In this document: positions 122-12,428 of the stretch, one piece after another
Layout: each line of letters starts with the position of its first letter
How positions within the stretch are numbered: position 1 is the stretch's first letter
Assembly (NCBI GenBank): GCA_938074445.1
Contig: CALJEK010000014.1
Location: forward strand, 1 to 32,091
Reading direction: 5' to 3'
Origin: Candidatus Kryptoniota bacterium
Lineage (GTDB): Bacteria; Bacteroidota; Ignavibacteria; Kryptoniales; Kryptoniaceae
Length of the DNA stretch: 32,091 nt
Translations under genes and position numbers: made by a program
The notes under the pieces: generated by a model
What the model was told of the DNA's origin: nothing
The model's database searches: none
What the model saw: only the letters and a program-made list of their open reading frames with translations

Positions 122-1447
122 TTATATTCCTCTCCCCAAAGCAACATATTTTACCTTTTCGCCCAATTTTTTAGGATCAAGTATTCGCCAGCAATCAATA
201 ATAACTGTAGGTGAGTGAAAAATATAACTCTCTATCGCTTCTTTTAATTTGATGTCACGATGCATTAATACAATAACCCCTGCCTTCTCTAAACAATCTT
301 TTATAGAACTCATATATTCTACCGCGCTACCAAATATCACTCTTGTATTATCAATTGCAAGTGGATCATAGGCTATAACCTCAATGTCATACTTCAATAA
401 CTCTTGAATTAATTTTATCGCTGGTGACTCTGTAATTACCGGAGTATTTGGGACAAAAGATAGACCCAAAATTCCAACTGTTTTATTGCTATGCTCTTTT
501 AGTTCTGATAAAACAATTCTAAGGAGGTTTTCATCTTGAAATTTATTAACTTTCTCAACCGCTTGAATTATCTCTGCTTGAACGTTATATTTTTGGGCAA
601 GGGTTAGATATGCTTTTGTATCTCGTGGAAAGCATGTGCCTCCAAAGGAAAGCCCACCTTGAAAATAATAAGGCGATATTCGTTTATCTACACCAATTGC
701 CTTGGTTATTACATCTACGTCTGCTCCAGGTATACGTTCACAAAGGTTTGATATGGAATTTGCAAAACTTATTTTAACTGTAATATATGAATTTAAACAT
801 ACCTTTGCTAACTCAGCATTTATAAGTGACATCCGAAAAATGGGTGGGTTGTTTTCACACATCTGCTTGTGTATTTCCTCTACAATTTTGCCAGCATCTG
901 CTGAGCTTTCGCCAATAACTACTAAATCAGGATTTAAAAAACCTCTTATCACATTACCAAGCGCAACAAAGTCTGGATCATAACAAACCGAGAAACCATC
1001 ATTAAGTTTTCTTCCTGTAACCCTTTCAAGCAAAGGTATAAACACTTTTTCAGTTGATTCCGGCATAACAGTGCTGCTTATAATAAATAGATGGTGTTCT
1101 TTCTTGCTATTTTTCAATTCATTACCTAATGAGACTAATGCTGATTCTATAAATCTATTAGAGAAACTACCATCGGGATTGCTAGGTGTTGCTACAAGTA
1201 TAAAGGTAACGTCGGTTTTTTCAATTGCCTCCTTATGGTTTGTAGTGGCAATAAGTGTTTTGCCACCATGTCTTGCTAAAAGTTCGTCTAATTTAGGTTC
1301 AAACCATGGAGCTATACCTTGGTTAACTTTCTTTACTACAGATTCTTCAATATCGACTCCTATTACTTTAAAACCTTTTTCAGCAAGGCAACATGCTAAA
1401 CATAAACCTAATTTCCCAAGACCAACAACTGAAATTGAATTAACCAT
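122..1447 (-). CDS. UDP-glucose/GDP-mannose dehydrogenase family protein
   Basis: NAD-dependent 4-electron oxidation of an NDP-hexose to the uronic acid, in the cytoplasm, feeding exopolysaccharide or capsule synthesis. The 441 residues match the family's usual length. The N-terminus has a Rossmann glycine motif (GLGKLGL, about 9-15) followed by VDIEESVV. The central helix NAELAKVCLNSY is near 210-221. The catalytic Cys272 lies in FGGTCFPRD, and a C-terminal NDP-sugar domain follows. The usual NPEFL substrate motif reads DPDFV, so the exact substrate is uncertain. The ATG is preceded by GGAGG at good spacing. It is the last visible gene of the leftward polysaccharide operon, 11 bp after the DUF362 gene. 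The family call is safe; UDP-glucose versus GDP-mannose or UDP-HexNAc is not resolved. Confidence 0.9.
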   Translation of the reverse strand: MVNSISVVGLGKLGLCLACCLAEKGFKVIGVDIEESVVKKVNQGIAPWFEPKLDELLARHGGKTLIATTNHKEAIEKTDVTFILVATPSNPDGSFSNRFIESALVSLGNELKNSKKEHHLFIISSTVMPESTEKVFIPLLERVTGRKLNDGFSVCYDPDFVALGNVIRGFLNPDLVVIGESSADAGKIVEEIHKQMCENNPPIFRMSLINAELAKVCLNSYITVKISFANSISNLCERIPGADVDVITKAIGVDKRISPYYFQGGLSFGGTCFPRDTKAYLTLAQKYNVQAEIIQAVEKVNKFQDENLLRIVLSELKEHSNKTVGILGLSFVPNTPVITESPAIKLIQELLKYDIEVIAYDPLAIDNTRVIFGSAVEYMSSIKDCLEKAGVIVLMHRDIKLKEAIESYIFHSPTVIIDCWRILDPKKLGEKVKYVALGRGI

Positions 1448-1458
1448 TTAAACCTCCG

Positions 1459-2958
1459 TTAATTATTGTGATTTGTTACTTCAATATGACCTATCCATCC
1501 AGGGTAAGGTTTAAAATTAAAAAATTTATTCGATTTGTCTCTCAAACAATTTCTAATCATCTCATCAGATGAAAGGACATCAATATCCTCAAGATTCTTC
1601 AACCCGTAGTTACTATTGGATGACAAAAGATATGTAAATTGTTTAAGCTTCATAGGATCAAAACCCATAAGCCTTGTAGTGACAAGATCTACAGCAAGAA
1701 AATTATCTCCACCAATTAATACACCAACTGGTTTTGGGTCAGGGACTAAAGGACCTTTGTTTTCACCACCAATTATGCCATCAACTATTGAAAATAATTT
1801 TCTTTGTATAGAATCATGGATTTGACCATTTTTATCAGCGAAATGAATTATTTTCATTAAATCAACAACCATTCTCCAAGCGGTGTCATTACCATACCAA
1901 TTACCGGCATCGAATAATCTTTTTTCATCCGCAACCTTTACTCCTAAAGGTTTAACAAGTTTTAAATATAAAAATCCATAGATAATTCTATGTGGTATCT
2001 CCCATAAAATAGAATTTTTTGCAAGGAATGTGTCATACATCCAACGCTCAAATTTTATGATTTTCTGTTCTACCGGGGTCAAAAACCCATCTGGGAACTG
2101 ATCACCTCCTTCGCTGGGTGTTCCTAAAGTATAGTGAACAATTAAATTTTTATTAGTAGCTATCCCAACTAACCCTTTCCCATTTAATGTAACACCAACT
2201 TTTTTGTGAACCTTCATTTTAGGTAAGGAAATCAACACATCAGCTGATAAAATTGTCTTAGATATTTCATATTCCTGCCTTTCGCCCAAATGATGCAAAA
2301 TTGCTTCCTGTCTATGATACACCGCACCATAAAATTTTTTAGGATTCGGATGAGAATAGTATGCACTTTCCTTTCCAAGATTTATCTTTATACTACCTTT
2401 AGGGTCCCCAGGCAATTTTCTTTTACATGACGGCATATGTAAGCTCTTAGACCAATAGTTTCTCAAATCAAGAAGTTTTACCGAAACCCCGGAATAGGAA
2501 GAATAAAAGTCTACAACTTTATCTAATCCAGTTACTTCTATTAATTCCTTAAAATTGCAATTATATTGAGGGGCATCAGCAATTATAATCTCCCCATCTC
2601 CTTGTAGTGCTATCCAGCAATAATCAATTACTGCTCTAATAAGTGACGGGTGGGTGATAATTGAGTATATATCCTTACCTTCAAAATGACGACTGAGTAC
2701 AAAATTTGGTTTTATTACCACTACCATTCCAGGTTTTATGAATTCACCTAATGGATTCCATCTATTTTTACCATAATTTTCAATATCGTAACCCAAGATA
2801 TAAAATAAATCTCTTAAAGCATCGTAAACATAATTTGGTTCAGAAGATAAATTATCACGAAAAGGATACTCAGGATAAGGGGCTGAAGGATTATATGGTG
2901 GGATAGATGGATATACAGGTTTTTTTGCTTGAATAACACCAACCTTAACTTTTTTCAT
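1459..2958 (-). CDS. DUF362 domain-containing protein
   Basis: A 499-residue protein of the DUF362 family. Recognisable stretches are VVIKPNFV near 81-88, the LPKMKVHKKVGVTLNGKGLVG region in the middle, and IGGDNFLAVDLVTTRLMG near 415-432. Family members are uncharacterised or only loosely linked to redox and metal functions. This one has no ferredoxin-type Cys clusters, unlike DUF362-4Fe4S fusions. There is no signal peptide or membrane segment, so it is probably cytoplasmic. Its ATG overlaps the capK-like stop by 4 bp (ATGA), with AGGTGA just upstream, so the two are translationally coupled. Position between a CapK-like enzyme and a sugar dehydrogenase suggests a role in modifying a polysaccharide or its precursor; that role is inference. 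Confidence 0.85.
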   Translation of the reverse strand: MKKVKVGVIQAKKPVYPSIPPYNPSAPYPEYPFRDNLSSEPNYVYDALRDLFYILGYDIENYGKNRWNPLGEFIKPGMVVVIKPNFVLSRHFEGKDIYSIITHPSLIRAVIDYCWIALQGDGEIIIADAPQYNCNFKELIEVTGLDKVVDFYSSYSGVSVKLLDLRNYWSKSLHMPSCKRKLPGDPKGSIKINLGKESAYYSHPNPKKFYGAVYHRQEAILHHLGERQEYEISKTILSADVLISLPKMKVHKKVGVTLNGKGLVGIATNKNLIVHYTLGTPSEGGDQFPDGFLTPVEQKIIKFERWMYDTFLAKNSILWEIPHRIIYGFLYLKLVKPLGVKVADEKRLFDAGNWYGNDTAWRMVVDLMKIIHFADKNGQIHDSIQRKLFSIVDGIIGGENKGPLVPDPKPVGVLIGGDNFLAVDLVTTRLMGFDPMKLKQFTYLLSSNSNYGLKNLEDIDVLSSDEMIRNCLRDKSNKFFNFKPYPGWIGHIEVTNHNN

Positions 2959-4274
2959 AAATCACCTATATCTAACTTCAATTCTTGTACTAAAAATCTA
3001 TGTTTGCCACGAGCTGTTGGAGGTATATCATTAACTTCTTGCATTATCAAATCAACATCATCCCCAAGTTTAACAAGCAGTCTTTTTCTTATGTTTTCTA
3101 TAACATCTGAACTTAAACTGCCCTTAGGAATATACCTGAAAACGACAACACCCTTTTCACGCTGATAAAATTGAAACTGCTTTATAGGATCAAAAATATC
3201 ATCGTGCATATTTATCGCAGTCATCGATATATACCGATTCTTCTTTGTTACTATGAATTCTTGAAGCCTTCCCTCAATCCTTTCCCATAGCTGATACGGT
3301 CTCCCACATGAAGGGCAGCCAAAACCTTTAAAAATAGCAAAGTCACGGGTTTTATATCTAATAAAGGGGGTATTATACATTAAGAAAGAGGTACCAACAA
3401 TTTCTCCCATCTGGCCAGGCTGTGTAACTATATTTCCATTTTTATCAACTAATTCCGCATATCCATATTGAGGTAATACATGATATATATCCTCATATTC
3501 ACAATAACCAGCTAATACAGCCATCTCGTAGTGTCCATAATGGCTAAAAACCCTTGCTCTAAAAATTTCCTTAAAAAGTTCTTTTTGATAGTCATAAAGA
3601 TTTTCAGAAGCACATAAAATTCCTCTAACCTGCGGAAAATCTTTTCCTGTTTCTTTTAAATATTTAGCAAATATATACAAAGACGAAGGATAACCTTTCA
3701 AAAATTCAGGTTGAAATTCAAAAGCCTTCTTTCTGTAAATTTCCATTTGCTCAGGAATTAAATAATATGAAGAACATCTAAGTTCATTAAATTCAGGATA
3801 AAATTCCGTATGATCTTCTGTATTTATTGGTATGCCTCGAAACACCATTTGTCTTACTCCTTCTTTCCAGCCAACTCTATAATATTGATAAGCCTTTGAG
3901 GCTAATTCTCTTGCAAATGCTTTCTTATCACGATAAAAACCAAAAGGAATTCCGGTACTTCCACCTGTTGTTACATACTCCATATCTTCAGTAGGATAGG
4001 TGAACTCTTTTAAATTATCACGGATAATTTCCTTCTCTATGAAAGGAAATTTTCTGAAGTTATCAAATGTTAGTGCATCAATATCGTTTGGTTCAATGCC
4101 CACACTTTTATATAACTTTCTATATCCAGGCACGTTTTCAATAGCATGTTTTATGACCTTCCTTAATTGTTCTAATTGATACTTCTCAATTTCCTCCCTC
4201 GACCAATGCTCCGAGGCTTTCAAAAATTCTATCCATTCAATATAATATGGATTTTGTAAATCTTTATGAATCAT
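2955..4274 (-). CDS. CapK/PaaK-like adenylate-forming enzyme
   Basis: Member of the phenylacetate-CoA ligase / CapK branch of the ANL superfamily, 439 residues. It should activate a carboxylate as an acyl-AMP, possibly for transfer to a sugar. The ATP-loop motif VTTGGSTGIP is at about 101-110. SHYGHYEMAVLA follows in the middle, and the hinge-like IRYKTRDFAIF precedes a CPSCGRP segment typical of CapK proteins. The C-terminal lid carries PPTARGKHRF. CapK homologues are common in capsule and EPS loci, which fits the neighbours (GDP-mannose 3,5-epimerase-like upstream, DUF362 overlapping by 4 bp downstream). The ATG at 4274 has no obvious Shine-Dalgarno. The substrate is unknown; a catabolic phenylacetate role is unlikely here because no paa genes are present. 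Confidence 0.88.
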   Translation of the reverse strand: MIHKDLQNPYYIEWIEFLKASEHWSREEIEKYQLEQLRKVIKHAIENVPGYRKLYKSVGIEPNDIDALTFDNFRKFPFIEKEIIRDNLKEFTYPTEDMEYVTTGGSTGIPFGFYRDKKAFARELASKAYQYYRVGWKEGVRQMVFRGIPINTEDHTEFYPEFNELRCSSYYLIPEQMEIYRKKAFEFQPEFLKGYPSSLYIFAKYLKETGKDFPQVRGILCASENLYDYQKELFKEIFRARVFSHYGHYEMAVLAGYCEYEDIYHVLPQYGYAELVDKNGNIVTQPGQMGEIVGTSFLMYNTPFIRYKTRDFAIFKGFGCPSCGRPYQLWERIEGRLQEFIVTKKNRYISMTAINMHDDIFDPIKQFQFYQREKGVVVFRYIPKGSLSSDVIENIRKRLLVKLGDDVDLIMQEVNDIPPTARGKHRFLVQELKLDIGDL

Positions 4275-4308: not shown

Positions 4309-5289
4309 TTATCTAATACCTAAACTTTTCTTAACTTGTTCTTCAACCCATTTATAAGTTATTTTCAAGCCTTCTTTTAAAGGCATCGAAGGAGCCCAGC
4401 CTAGTTTTTCCTTGATTAATCTATTGTCGGAATTTCTACCCCTCACTCCCTGAGGGCCCGGCACATGAACGATCTTTAACTTTTTTCCTGCAATATTCAT
4501 GATCATTTCTGCCAACTGGTCAATAGTGACCATTTCTTCAGAACCGATATTTACAGGACCAGTCCAATTTGATCTCATTAACCTTAAAGTTCCTTCTATG
4601 CATTCATCTATATACAAGAAAGAGCGGGTCTGCTTACCATCGCCCCATACTTCTATATAATCTTCACCTTTAAGTATAGCGGTTGCCACTTTTCTACACA
4701 AAGCAGCAGGCGCCTTTTCCCTGCCCCCTATCCAGGTTCCCTCAGGCCCAAAGATATTGTGATATCTTGCTATTCTTACTTCCATACCATAATTTCTATG
4801 ATACGCCAAATACAGCCTTTCGCTAAAAAGTTTTTCCCAACCATACTCACTATCGGGTGCCGCAGGATACGCTGAGTCTTCTGAACACTTCGGATTATTA
4901 GGGTCTTCTTGATTGTATTTAGGATATATACAGGCTGATGAGGAATAAAATATCCTCTTGATATTTCTCCTGTAGCATGCATCAAGCATGTTAAGATTAA
5001 TCAATGCTGAGTTATGCATAATATCAGCATCATTATCACCTGTAAACACATACCCAGCACCTCCCATATCCGCTGCAAGTTGATACACCTCATCAAATTT
5101 AGTATCTACGATACTTCTGCAAAAATAAGGGTCTCTTAAATCTCCAATAACAAAATCATCTGCTTCAGTTTCACTAAACTCAGGATATTTTAAATCAACT
5201 CCTCTGACCCAATATCCCTCTCTCTTGAGTCTCTTTACAAGGTGACTCCCAATAAAACCACCTGCTCCACAAACTAAAGCTTTCTTCAT
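4309..5289 (-). CDS. GDP-mannose 3,5-epimerase-like NAD-dependent epimerase
   Basis: Extended SDR enzyme of 326 residues, close in motif to GDP-mannose 3,5-epimerases (GDP-mannose to GDP-L-galactose/gulose). NAD-binding GAGGFIGSH is at about 8-16, LAADMGGAGYV at 71-81, SSACIYP at 117-123, the YxxxK pair is Y149/K153, and the diagnostic GTWIGGREKAPAALCRK spans 184-200. Residues equivalent to the known catalytic Ser, Cys, Tyr, Lys and second Lys are S118, C120, Y149, K153 and K192. WGDGKQTRSFLYIDEC follows at 215-230. The protein is slightly shorter than plant GME. An AGGA lies just before the ATG. It is the first intact gene after two decayed ones, so it may now be the first functional product of the operon. 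Another SDR epimerase activity cannot be excluded. Confidence 0.85.
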   Translation of the reverse strand: MKKALVCGAGGFIGSHLVKRLKREGYWVRGVDLKYPEFSETEADDFVIGDLRDPYFCRSIVDTKFDEVYQLAADMGGAGYVFTGDNDADIMHNSALINLNMLDACYRRNIKRIFYSSSACIYPKYNQEDPNNPKCSEDSAYPAAPDSEYGWEKLFSERLYLAYHRNYGMEVRIARYHNIFGPEGTWIGGREKAPAALCRKVATAILKGEDYIEVWGDGKQTRSFLYIDECIEGTLRLMRSNWTGPVNIGSEEMVTIDQLAEMIMNIAGKKLKIVHVPGPQGVRGRNSDNRLIKEKLGWAPSMPLKEGLKITYKWVEEQVKKSLGIR

Positions 5290-5319: not shown

Positions 5320-5820
5320 TCAAGCCTTTACTACTTTTTCAAGGTATTTTTTATTCTTTATTAAATTTCTTGTATCAATAATCAAGTTTGAATGTTCTCC
5401 TAATAAAATCTGGATCATAGGCACTATGATCTGTAACCACTATCACGCAATCGAATTTTTTAAGATTCTCTGGAAGAAGTTCAACTGGCTTTTTTTATAC
5501 TCATATCTGGCTGGCGATATTTGTCAAGTGGAGTAGGAACGCAGATGATAATGCAATCCATAGATGACAGCTGACTGAAGTCAGTTGTTGGAGTAAAATT
5601 TGCTTTGTATTGCACCAAAAAAAGAAGAGTCAATATGTTTGATATAGCTTTTGCCTTCCTTAAGCATCTCAACTTTTTTAGGATCAATATCAAAACCTGT
5701 AACCTCAAAACCTGCCTTAGAAAATTCGATAACAAGAGGAAGGCCAACATAACCAAGCCCGATAATTCCAATTTTTGCTTGTTTTGATTTTATTTTTTGA
5801 ATTAAAAAATCGTGCGACAT
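5320..5820 (-). pseudogene. Decayed UDP-HexNAc 6-dehydrogenase (WecC/WbpA type), internally deleted
   Basis: Remains of a sugar-nucleotide 6-dehydrogenase normally about 430 residues long. The ATG at 5820 opens a clean N-terminus: [14 protein letters not shown], the NAD motif, then GFDIDPKKV and SYIKHIDSS. Near 5600-5625 the frame changes in T-rich runs, and the other frame continues TPTTDFSQL...[20 protein letters not shown]. At a 7-A run (about 5493-5499) the frame shifts again straight into the C-terminal part VELLPENL...DCVIVVTDHSAYDPDF. A last shift near 5370 reaches LIIDTRNLIKNKKY and a stop at 5320-5322. Roughly 270 central residues, including the catalytic Cys region, are absent. Some shifts are in homopolymers and could be sequencing errors, but the large deletion cannot be explained that way. 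Confidence 0.85.
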
Positions 5821-5870
5821 CAGGATTAATTCTTCTTAAATTTATTTAATTACTTAAACCCCATTGCTAG

Positions 5871-5966
5871 TCAAAGCCTACCAACTACTTCGTATCCCTC
5901 TTTCAAAAGAAACTCCGTCACCTTCCAGCCAATAAACCCAGCACAACCTGTAACCAAGATGCACAT
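5871..5966 (-). pseudogene. N-terminal remnant of an NAD-dependent sugar epimerase
   Basis: A 31-codon frame starting ATG at 5966 with AAAGG a few bases upstream. It reads MCILVTGCAGFIGWKV and then a short helix ending EGYEVVGRL before TGA at 5871-5873. This is the beta1-alpha1-beta2 Rossmann start of an extended SDR epimerase, with the GxxGxxG glycines intact. The rest of the gene is missing. It lies between leader copy A and the decayed 6-dehydrogenase, so it was probably the first gene of the ancestral polysaccharide operon, perhaps a UDP-glucuronate or UDP-GlcNAc epimerase. It cannot make an enzyme. Confidence 0.75.
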
Positions 5967-6046: not shown

Positions 6047-6059
6047 ACACGCTACCGCC
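6047..6059 (-). promoter_or_regulatory. ops/JUMPstart-like element, copy A
   Basis: The minus strand reads GGCGGTAGCGTGT. The ops element that recruits the NusG paralogue RfaH in enterobacteria has the core GGCGGTAG followed by a variable pair and TG, and typically lies in the untranslated leader of surface-polysaccharide operons. Here it sits about 67 nt after the predicted transcription start, before a polysaccharide operon. Immediately upstream on the transcript is a hairpin with arms GGGAG and CTCCC (6081-6077 with 6067-6063). No RfaH-like gene is visible in the window. Confidence 0.7.
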
Positions 6060-6132
6060 ATTGGGAGCCCCTTGATCTCCCTAAAATTTAAAACCAATGT
6101 ATGATGATAAGTTAACATCAACCTTAATGCAT

Positions 6133-6161
6133 AATATAATAAATTTCTCAATTCCTGTCAA
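6133..6161 (-). promoter_or_regulatory. Sigma70-like promoter of leader A
   Basis: On the minus strand, TTGACA (6161-6156) and TATATT (6138-6133) are separated by 17 bp. The predicted transcription start is near 6126, reading into the hairpin, the ops-like motif and the polysaccharide genes. The hexamers and spacing are repeated exactly in copy B. Confidence 0.75.
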
Positions 6162-6200
6162 GTTCTAAAATACCTCGCTCAAGAAATTCATTGTTTCAAT

Positions 6201-6874
6201 CTACCATTCAAAACTTTGAACCACTATTACCCCCTTCTCCTCAGCAAACTTAAGAACTTTTTTTAACGCAAAATGTGTAACCAATACGCGAACTATATCC
6301 CTATCCGGATATTCCTCACTCACAATCCTAACCTTTTCCTCAAGCTCGTCAAAAACTTCAACATCATCAAGTTTTGTCTTTGCCTCACCAACTATAACAA
6401 CTTCCTCACCATCTCTCTTGCCCAACCCAAGATATTTATCTCCTTCCCACCTAATTCCGTCCTTACAAATTTTTCCGTAATCTCTATCCCATATCTTTCC
6501 CTTAAAACCTTTGGCAACATCCTGTATGCCTCGTTTTCAAAAGCGTAACCAAAACTATTTGACAATCCACCAACTTGAACTTGAAGATTCCTTACAGCAA
6601 TCGTCAACTTCCTTACTTCTTCTTCAGTCTTTCTTTGTGCTTCTGCAAGCTTATCTATCGATTCCCACACTCTGTTAAAATTCTCTTCTGTGAGCTTCCT
6701 AAAAGTACTAAGTTCCTCTTCCGTTCTTTTTTGTGCCTTTGCTAATTCCCCAATTATTGCTTTAACCTCGGAGAAATCCTCCCTACTGATATAAACAGAC
6801 CTTATATGCTCATCAACTATCTCAATTATTTTCTTTCTTAATGAAGGCGTTATTTTAAGTGTTGATTTCGCCAA
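6201..6874 (-). pseudogene. DUF3782-type PD-(D/E)XK nuclease-like protein, single frameshift
   Basis: Two frames together give a protein of about 224 residues. The first (TTG at 6874 to stop at 6392) has an N-terminal helix, two heptad-like coiled-coil repeats (ELAKAQKRTEEEL and KLAEAQRKTEEEV), VGGLSNSFGYAFENEAYRMLP, then EITEKFVRTELGGKEINIL. The second frame picks up as GKRDGEEVVIVGEAKTKL and ends VIVVQSFEW at 6201. EIN followed by VVIVGEAK is the expected PD-(D/E)XK core. One extra T in GGTTGGGC (about 6415-6425) would restore a single frame, so this is a 1-base loss or a sequencing error. The TTG start is the only good one, since an in-frame TAA lies 24 bp upstream. Proteins of this type are common in thermophiles and archaea; their role is unknown. 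The gene follows leader copy B. Confidence 0.8.
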
Positions 6875-6976
6875 GGTGCCGTTTATCTTTTCTTAACGGA
6901 TTCGTATAAAGAATAAAAAAACATTTGCTAATTATCAAATTAAAACTTGTCCTCTTTCTAAAATTTTGTAAAGTTA

Positions 6977-6989
6977 ACACGCTACCGCC
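6977..6989 (-). promoter_or_regulatory. ops/JUMPstart-like element, copy B
   Basis: The minus strand again reads GGCGGTAGCGTGT, about 64 nt after the predicted start of transcription and three bases past the hairpin. Exact preservation of the 13-mer in two otherwise diverged leaders suggests selection on this sequence or a recent duplication. Confidence 0.7.
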
Positions 6990-7059
6990 ATTGGGAGTTC
7001 TTAACTCCCCCCTCAAATTAAACCGATATGAAAATGTTAACTCCATAAATTGCAAATAC

Positions 7060-7088
7060 AATATAATAAATTTTTCAATACCTGTCAA
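7060..7088 (-). promoter_or_regulatory. Sigma70-like promoter of leader B
   Basis: TTGACA at 7088-7083 and TATATT at 7065-7060 on the minus strand, with a 17-bp spacer, identical in both hexamers to copy A. The predicted start is near 7053. Confidence 0.75.
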
Positions 7089-7106
7089 GACCCCCTATGT
7101 GACCAA

Positions 7107-10967: not shown

Positions 10968-12428
10968 ATGGCGGAAATTTCAATAAAAATAGCGGGTGAA
11001 GAGGTAACCGCTAAGGTAAAAAATTTAACACTTGTTTGGACGGGATTAACTTTCATCCTGTTCCCCATCCTTGGTCTTTTAGGATTTTTGATGCGACTTG
11101 TCCAGGGGAATGTTTTCCCTGCTTTTCCGCCTGAGTGGTTTTACTCGATCTTGACACTTCACGGTGTTGGGATGGTCGGACTGTGGTTTGTTGAAGGAAT
11201 GACCGCTGTGATTTATCTGCTTTCAAAGTATGTCAAACCAAGTGTTGGCGTCTCATGGTTCTCATTCGCTCTGACTCTCGTTGGGGTTGCTTTACTTATA
11301 ATTTCAACCATCGGTGGAAGGTTTGGAGCGGGTTGGTATTTTCTATATCCTTTACCATATAAATCCGCTGAGATATGGCCGAATTGGGCTACTGATTTAT
11401 ACTTAATTGGACTTGGAGTTCTCGGGATAGCGTGGACTGTTTGGGTGATCGATGTCTTATGAGCAATTTCCCAAAGATATTCACTGGGTCAAGCTCTTGC
11501 TTGGCATTATCTTGCTGGAAAAACAGAACCCGAGCTTCCGCCGATCATTCTAATTGTTACTGTATCATGCATCTCCGCTGTAACAGGATTTCTTGCAGCG
11601 GTTGCGCTTCTTCTGCTGTTTCTACTTTACCGTGTCTCTGGGACATTCGCGGATCCGCTCCTTATGAAAAACCTTGTCTTTTATTTTGGTCATGTTCTTG
11701 TGAATATAACGATGTATCTTGGAGTTGCAATTTTATATGAGACACTGCCTCAATATACCCAAAAACCATGGAAGACTAATAAACTCGTTGCGTTTGCTTG
11801 GAATACGGTATTATTACTTGTCCTGTTTGCATACTTTCACCATCTCTATATGGACTTCGTCCAGCCGAGAGCTTTCCAAGTGATCGGGCAATTTGCCTCT
11901 TATTTCATTTCAGTTCCAGCTGCAGTGGTAACTATTTTCAGTGCCCTTGCAATTGTATATAAGACAAAGGTTAATTGGACGCTTGGTTCATCTTTGATTT
12001 TCCTCGGGACGATGGGATGGGCTGTCGGTGGCGTCGCTGCAGTGATCGATTCCTCAATAGCAGTTAATTTCAGATTTCATAATACACTGTGGGTTCCAGC
12101 TCACTTTCACACATATTTCTTAATGGGCGTTGTTCTTATGATACTTGGTTTCATTTATCATTTTTCACAAGAGCATTCAAAGGTTCCCGATAACCCTAAA
12201 CTTGCGCGGTTAACTGTATGGCTAATTTTAATAGGCGGATATGGATTTTTAAGCATGTTTTATACCGGTGGCGCCCTTGCAGTTCCGCGAAGATATGCGC
12301 TTTACCCAGCTAATTTTTCAACTGGGGCAACGCTTTCTCAAATAAGCATCGTTTTCGTAAGCATCTTAACAATTGGATTTTTGCTTTACTTAATTCAAAC
12401 CATAAGAAGATGGGCAAGATCATTTTAA
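10968..12428 (+). pseudogene. Heme-copper oxidase/NO reductase catalytic subunit (B-family-like) with in-frame UGA
   Basis: One reading frame of 487 codons interrupted only by TGA at codon 165 (11460-11462); no frameshift is present. GGGAGG precedes the ATG. About 12 membrane helices are expected. Metal ligands are all visible: low-spin heme His65 (LTLHGVGMV), CuB His242 (FGHVLVN) and His291/His292 (YFHHLY), and heme His378/His380 (WVPAHFH). At the position of the Tyr cross-linked to CuB His in ba3 oxidases (His-Pro-x-Val-Tyr) this protein has Asn246. That loss is typical of NO reductases derived from B-type oxidases, such as sNOR. The UGA falls in a loop between helices, where Arg (CGA) would be a one-base change. 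True nonsense mutation, assembly error and read-through all remain possible. The last 19 bp overlap the SCO gene. Confidence 0.82.

Follow-up and report, generated by a model that had tools for sequence, protein, structure and literature searches.

Leaders built around the ops element stand before polysaccharide genes in Kryptonia, and sequence comparison indicates that they are probably (a probability of about 0.7) recruitment sites for a specialised NusG paralogue working like RfaH. Together, leaders and paralogue make up a putative RfaH/ops-like system in a separate NusG-paralogue lineage, for which we infer both pausing and recruitment. The window, meaning the whole 32,091-base stretch that was analysed, is the entire contig C14 of assembly G000 (2.28 Mb, 53 contigs, 94% complete). 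The source genome belongs to Kryptonia, a group described from high-temperature springs (PMC4737851). Relatives in the genus include Ca. Kryptonium thompsonii (G001), Ca. Chrysopegis kryptomonas and Ca. Thermokryptus sp. NCBI taxonomy assigns K. thompsonii to the phylum Ca. Kryptoniota of the FCB group; GTDB places it in Bacteroidota.

Two leaders with an exact ops element in the window

A 13-mer search was used to locate GGCGGTAGCGTGT in the window. It occurs twice, both times on the minus strand (Table 1), which bears out an earlier note on this DNA that had described two leftward leaders with an exact ops core. These are the only window sites within two mismatches of the 13-mer; 100 dinucleotide shuffles of the window gave a mean of 0.11 and a maximum of 1. 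The exact ops 12-mer has two matches in the whole 2,278,726-base assembly, both in the window, and its reversed control has 0. The earlier note had held that scatter of the motif through the genome would speak against its reading. Sites in G000 with up to two mismatches number 47 (2 exact, 3 with one mismatch and 42 with two) versus 84 for the reversed pattern, and a hairpin was seen by eye at only the two window sites among the 30 of 47 whose contexts were examined. The exact motif is not scattered: there is no excess beyond the two exact sites. Genome counts, shuffles and the six leaders described below rule out a chance origin.

Both window leaders have the same parts in the same order: TTGACA-17-TATATT, about 50 nt, GGGAG-loop-CTCCC, AAT and GGCGGTAGCGTGT. 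This order agrees with the earlier description of promoter, hairpin, three bases and 13-mer. The 40-45 nt that it gave for the gap between promoter and hairpin applies only when counted from a presumed start point; from TATATT the distance is 51 nt in leader A and 50 nt in leader B. The ops 12-mer starts 99 or 102 nt past the start of TTGACA and 3 nt past the hairpin. The two leaders are 930 nt apart. Leader B is syntenic (tRNA, pdxJ) with the leader on contig C1 of K. thompsonii, and both window copies resemble that leader up to the exact 3' edge of the motif and no further.

Table 1. Leader elements and genes on the leftward strand of the window.
Feature	Position	Strand	Basis
Leader A, promoter-like TTGACA-17-TATATT	6133..6161	-	sequence
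Hairpin A, GGGAG / 9-nt loop / CTCCC, ends 3 nt before ops	6063..6081	-	sequence and shuffles (7/1000)
ops motif A, GGCGGTAGCGTGT	6047..6059	-	exact match
Leader B, promoter-like TTGACA-17-TATATT	7060..7088	-	sequence
Hairpin B, GGGAG / 7-nt loop / CTCCC, extendable by two pairs to 7 bp	6993..7009	-	sequence and shuffles (0/1000)
ops motif B, GGCGGTAGCGTGT	6977..6989	-	exact match
160-aa ORF between the leaders	6392..6874	-	no Pfam match at 1e-3, no NCBIfam match at 1e-5
Short ORF like the start of a sugar epimerase, first behind leader A	5871..5966	-	by eye
Decayed nucleotide-sugar dehydrogenase, three pieces	5384..5814	-	39, 61 and 71% identity to the K. thompsonii gene
Intact NAD-dependent epimerase/dehydratase; close relative directly behind the G003 leader	4309..5289	-	Pfam/NCBIfam
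AMP-dependent CoA-ligase-like protein	2955..4274	-	NCBIfam matches below cut-off, no Pfam match
DUF362 protein	1459..2958	-	Pfam
Nucleotide-sugar dehydrogenase, TIGR03026 above cut-off	122..1447	-	Pfam/NCBIfam

Six leaders of one build across the genus

Four further leaders of the same build are present in three sister genomes: two in G001, on contigs C1 and C10, and one each in G002 and G003. The G001 C1, G002 and G003 leaders came from a motif search that allowed at most 3 mismatches. Covariance model R1, built from four leaders with copy B and the C10 leader left out, refound these and added the one on G001 C10. Within the genus, R1 returned the five GGGAG/CTCCC leaders at E values of 2.2e-11 or better and the C10 leader at only E = 0.007, so a diverged leader elsewhere could escape the model.

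The core GGCGGTAGC is kept in all six leaders, and conservation ends at the 3' edge of the motif. Positions 1-9 and 12 of ops are invariant, with changes confined to position 10 (G or A) and positions 11 and 13 (each C in one leader). The 12-nt ops is exact in three leaders, carries G10A in two and is altered at positions 10 and 11 in one; one leader has both C at position 11 and a four-pair stem. The distance from the start of TTGAC to the start of ops is 97, 99, 102, 103, 104 or 107 nt. Mean pairwise identity among the six is 0.94 for AAT plus ops, 0.65 for the hairpin region and 0.67 for the first 34 nt, and falls to 0.48 between the -10 element and the hairpin and to 0.32 downstream. The earlier impression of a diverged middle between conserved ends was thus broadly right.

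The stem ends exactly 3 nt before ops in 6/6 leaders. In five the stem is GGGAG/CTCCC and the loop is 7 or 9 nt long. In the C10 leader the loop has 13 nt and GCGA/TCGC replaces GGGA/TCCC, which amounts to one compensatory pair and the loss of the fifth pair. The loops are six different sequences of 7, 9, 9, 9, 9 and 13 nt, none of them UNCG. Hairpins were matched by eye and by script, and an in-house score was used to compare them with base shuffles of the 40 nt upstream of ops; shuffles scoring as well numbered, per 1000, 7 for A, 0 for B, 9 for G001-C1, 13 for G002, 13 for G003 and 48 for G001-C10. Folding energies of five whole leaders are ordinary (z = -0.36 to 0.52), so the case for the hairpin rests on its position and conservation.

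Genes behind the leaders

Leader A had been taken in the earlier note to head a surface-polysaccharide operon. Intact sugar genes are indeed present, but the first genes are decayed (Table 1): an epimerase-like fragment and a broken dehydrogenase precede four intact genes that run to the contig end, of which two are sugar enzymes, one is CoA-ligase-like and one is a DUF362 protein. Leader B heads a short interrupted gene and no sugar gene. The 160-aa ORF between the leaders apparently continues in another frame to about position 6202 (6202-6874, minus strand).

The sister leaders have fuller clusters. Behind the G001 C10 leader, 13 same-strand ORFs fill the 17.8 kb examined, and the 10 that were scanned comprise a nucleotide-sugar dehydrogenase, a flippase (Polysacc_synt), a UDP-galactopyranose mutase, two glycosyltransferases, a Wzy_C protein, a dehydrogenase/oxidoreductase fusion, a UDP-GlcNAc 2-epimerase, a DUF354 protein and one ORF without a match. 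The G002 leader heads a comparable cluster, with 13 ORFs in 14.7 kb (10 scanned). Epimerase remnants, recognised by eye, come first behind the G001 C1 leader; next comes a cluster of 15 ORFs on the same strand, 6 of which were scanned and encode a flippase, Wzy, two glycosyltransferases, an epimerase and an oxidoreductase. The G003 leader lies directly before a sugar epimerase at a contig end. Wzx/Wzy-type polysaccharide clusters with flippase, Wzy-type and glycosyltransferase genes stand behind 3/4 sister leaders.

Decayed fragments at leader A (5384-5966, minus strand) and at K. thompsonii C1 look as if sugar cassettes had been exchanged while the leader stayed in place. Leaders seem to persist longer than the genes that follow them.

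A second NusG-domain protein with two of the four RfaH contact residues

The earlier note had named a genome with only one NusG as evidence against its reading. The G000 assembly encodes two NusG-domain proteins. The housekeeping NusG adjoins ORFs like rplK and rplA, which come after it (by eye). The paralogue (175 aa, G000:C31:79193) is encoded directly downstream of a wzc-type gene (Wzz/tyrosine kinase), a further gene that it could regulate, and motifs of such a gene lie upstream of it in the five other genomes with flank. It is present in 7/7 genomes of the genus, at 70-88% identity in the six others, one copy being truncated at a contig edge. Paralogue and leaders are on different contigs in all four leader-bearing genomes, which are draft assemblies, and the paralogue probably acts in trans. 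The sequence ACGGCGG, which is not ops, is conserved 78-102 nt before the paralogue gene (L063-L068) in 6/6 genomes with flank.

NCBIfam profiles gave the paralogue 92.6 and 74.1 bits with two RfaH models, 86.6 with UpxY, 65.7 with LoaP and 62.4 with NusG. RfaH was the best of six matches, and none of the NCBIfam cut-offs was passed (144.5 for the RfaH equivalog, 100 for UpxY); the RfaH cut-off was passed in 0/395 genomes of the phylum. Seven other phylum proteins, none with R73, score higher on the RfaH profile (92.4-101.7 bits) than the Kryptonia paralogue (92 bits), so the overall score does not single it out. The closest solved structures are those of RfaH (E = 1e-10). An AlphaFold model from three sequences had a mean pLDDT of 35.4 and was set aside.

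RfaH contacts ops via the side chains of K10, H20, R23 and R73 (PMC5995543). PMC7593976 describes K10 as older than RfaH and R73 as later, lists E48, I93 and F130 as needed for autoinhibition, and gives the Rho-contact loop of NusG as I-F-G. In RfaH numbering, the equivalent of K10 is found in 6/6 readable Kryptonia paralogues and those of F56 and T72-R73-G74-V75 in 7/7; K10 and R73 are K11 and R72 of the paralogue. H20 is replaced by Y or W and R23 by L, S or F, so two of the four DNA-contacting side chains are missing. The Rho-contact loop IFG is changed to SMD (145-147) in 7/7 paralogues; the housekeeping copy has IFG, and L at position 56. At the autoinhibition positions E48 is V, F130 is V or I, and I93 is I or V. 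The absence of two of these three residues suggests a constitutively active or differently controlled form. RfaH homologues predicted to stay in the active fold, and constitutively active in assays, are reported in a 2026 preprint (PMC13015549).

Residue 73 separates Kryptonia from the other phylum paralogues compared. R73 is present in 0/51 other phylum rows (27 E, 8 D, 5 N, 1 K and 10 others), and position 10 is K in 21 and R in 30 of them, so in this sample K10 is not diagnostic and R73 is. The 51 rows are best-scoring matches rather than a random sample and correspond to about 50 proteins, since L078 and L193 are the same gene; L090 and L003 (housekeeping NusG) and L186 (a repeat of the Kryptonia paralogue) were left out of the residue table. 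R73 is also found in 5/7 proteobacterial sequences used, those from E. coli, Rahnella, two Erwiniaceae and Pseudosulfitobacter.

Ancestry of the paralogue

A maximum-likelihood tree of 65 sequences was rooted on housekeeping NusG. It sampled few RfaH sequences, covered the Bacteroidota phylum and Proteobacteria, and left out L090, L186 and L069, the last being truncated. All Kryptonia proteins fall together on a single branch (100). They group with the 51 other rows of the phylum at UFBoot 78, and those 51 rows are monophyletic at 100. Four enterobacterial RfaH proteins group at 100 with Kryptonia outside, and RfaH joins both phylum groups at 99; three alphaproteobacterial proteins fall outside RfaH plus the phylum paralogues. 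This placement argues against a recent transfer of rfaH from enterobacteria. The missed RfaH cut-off, the two absent autoinhibition residues and the position outside the RfaH branch likewise tell against the transferred signal that the earlier note had offered as one option, insofar as a simple recent RfaH transfer is meant, and the same three points rule out filing the paralogue as RfaH.

Sampling confined to the phylum and Proteobacteria means that the tree fits an ancient origin and convergence alike. Tentatively, and at slightly under even odds, a NusG-paralogue lineage separate from RfaH recognises the very ops word that RfaH reads, with a hairpin placed likewise before it. The code would then either be older than the split between Proteobacteria and FCB/Bacteroidota or have been reached twice, on the same widespread pause and with the same arginine, in Kryptonia without the RfaH-type autoinhibition residues.

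Distribution of leader and paralogue

R1 found no leader in G004 or G006 (97% complete) or in G005 (71%), though all three keep the paralogue with R73. Of 13 weak R1 matches in these genomes, none of the 10 examined looks like a leader, and the four GGCGGTAGCNNG sites of these genomes were judged by eye to fall within coding-like sequence or at its end. The dehydrogenase that stands behind two of the leaders follows a related pattern in the genus: intact copies of at least 53% identity occur only in G001, G002 and G003, the gene is broken in G000 and a fragment in G004, and G005 and G006 have 29%-identity relatives and small pieces. Target and signal may have been lost together in G004-G006. 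The paralogue would then need another use there, perhaps in its own wzc operon. Its retention in three genomes without the leader is the main unexplained point.

Across 395 phylum genomes, R1 at E <= 0.01 with stricter filters matched 10 genomes, of which only G000 is convincing; the nine other matches lie in stop-free frames of 253-652 codons. The classic JUMPstart model matched 0/296 phylum genomes at E <= 0.01, and G000 fails too, so this result excludes just the enterobacterial form. The exact 12-mer is present in 24/100 genomes of the class, G000 included, and the reversed control is also present in many. Examination of 28 of the 30 listed class sites outside the window (G046:C218 and G040:C45 were left out) identified one as the K. 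thompsonii C1 leader. No hairpin was seen by eye at the other 27, which fall within stop-free frames of 89-1004 codons (109 or more in 26 cases), and they were rejected.

Searches of the open-licence PMC literature yielded no account of ops or of RfaH-like recruitment in Kryptonia. JUMPstart is listed for Gammaproteobacteria, and its conserved stem-loop was already remarked on in 2010 (PMC2864571). A 2020 survey counted RfaH in 1/1,908 Bacteroidota genomes and called the recruitment of operon-encoded paralogues unknown (PMC7593976). Its single RfaH-bearing genome could be a relative of the source genome.

Proposed mechanism and alternatives

Under the preferred reading, RNA polymerase would leave the TTGACA/TATATT promoter, make the short hairpin and pause at the end of GGCGGTAGCRTG. 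In the paused complex the exposed non-template strand would form a small DNA hairpin (C3:G8), to which the 175-aa paralogue encoded on contig C31 would bind via K11 and R72. Having lost its own Rho loop, the paralogue would stay on the polymerase and keep housekeeping NusG, and hence Rho, away, and the polymerase with its paralogue could then cross the long polysaccharide operon as it does with RfaH. The base of the RNA hairpin is 14 nt from the presumed pause end, which by our own reckoning is near the RNA exit from polymerase, and the hairpin may act against backtracking or favour the pause. The sequences directly show the motif, the position of the hairpin, the spacing, the conservation of all three, the gene clusters and the paralogue with its residues, and from these we infer pausing, binding, Rho exclusion and what the hairpin does.

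In the mutational results given in PMC5995543 for E. coli ops, changing C3 or T6 weakens RfaH recruitment and changing G4, G5, A7 or G8 abolishes it, and none of these bases is needed for pausing; all six are kept in 6/6 leaders. An element that acts as a strong pause plus hairpin, with housekeeping NusG or no factor while the paralogue serves other targets, would fit the description of ops as matching the consensus pause and of ops-like sequences as pausing diverse polymerases (PMC5995543 and PMC7593976), as well as the three genomes in which R1 found no leader although the paralogue and its R73 are retained. It is an unlikely account, since C3-G8 vary in the pause consensus yet are invariant here, and, in the phylum paralogues examined, R73 occurs in this genus alone. 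Recruitment could instead go through RNA, with the nascent hairpin binding the paralogue and the ops-like sequence supplying only the pause. LoaP binds a leader RNA hairpin (PMC12691694), and the stem is kept in 6/6 leaders with one compensatory pair; against this stand six different loops, none UNCG, and a stem altered in one leader where the 9-mer never is, which makes RNA recruitment improbable.

Conservation of the leader as a recombination border for the exchange of sugar cassettes, unread by any factor, is highly improbable, although several observations would suit it: the genes behind the leaders differ, with the first ones decayed in the window and at K. thompsonii C1; similarity of both window copies to the C1 leader stops exactly at the motif's 3' edge; and two copies lie 930 nt apart. 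A border alone leaves unexplained why the 9-nt core and the stem position are spared when identity between promoter and hairpin is 0.48, and border use and antitermination are compatible. Recruitment of the paralogue remains the preferred reading. The earlier proposal that a specialised NusG reads the same signal gains partial support from the recurrence of motif, hairpin and promoter spacing before sister polysaccharide genes and from the second NusG; a simple recent RfaH transfer finds no support.

Comparison with known systems

The Kryptonia system resembles RfaH/ops (Rfam RF01707) in having the exact 12-nt ops in half of its leaders, before polysaccharide clusters, with a stem just 5' of ops (gap of 1 nt in the Rfam consensus and 3 nt in Kryptonia). 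Its stem sequence and spacer differ, and the RF01707 gathering score of 35 is not reached by leader A (20.3 bits, E = 0.17), with leader B unlisted up to E = 10. The paralogue is like RfaH in being encoded elsewhere, in K10, F56 and T72-R73-G74-V75 and in the lost Rho loop. It is unlike RfaH in lacking H20, R23, E48 and F130, in its score below cut-off, in its separate branch and in its place behind a wzc-type gene. The UpxY/WSDRKK-type paralogues of Bacteroidota share with it the tie to polysaccharide genes and a weak sister grouping (UFBoot 78), whereas the Kryptonia protein lacks the WSDRKK segment and has R at position 73 where they mostly have E, D or N. In contrast to UpxY, its gene is off the contigs of the presumed target clusters and its putative DNA signal is defined. 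LoaP also combines a NusG paralogue with a leader hairpin, but the Kryptonia loops are not UNCG and the invariant part is ops rather than the hairpin.

How a factor reads the non-template strand during elongation has been studied in great depth for RfaH/ops. If a second lineage uses the same word with a partly different contact surface and no obvious autoinhibition, the proposed order of RfaH evolution, namely Rho loss, K10, R73 and autoinhibition, could be put to the test. A NusG paralogue from this region of the tree would also gain a named DNA signal.

Elsewhere in the window, the COX1 (cytochrome c oxidase subunit I) gene at 10968-12428 on the plus strand is broken in two, one ORF matching profile positions 3-139 and the other 203-430, which reflects either a sequencing error or a pseudogene.
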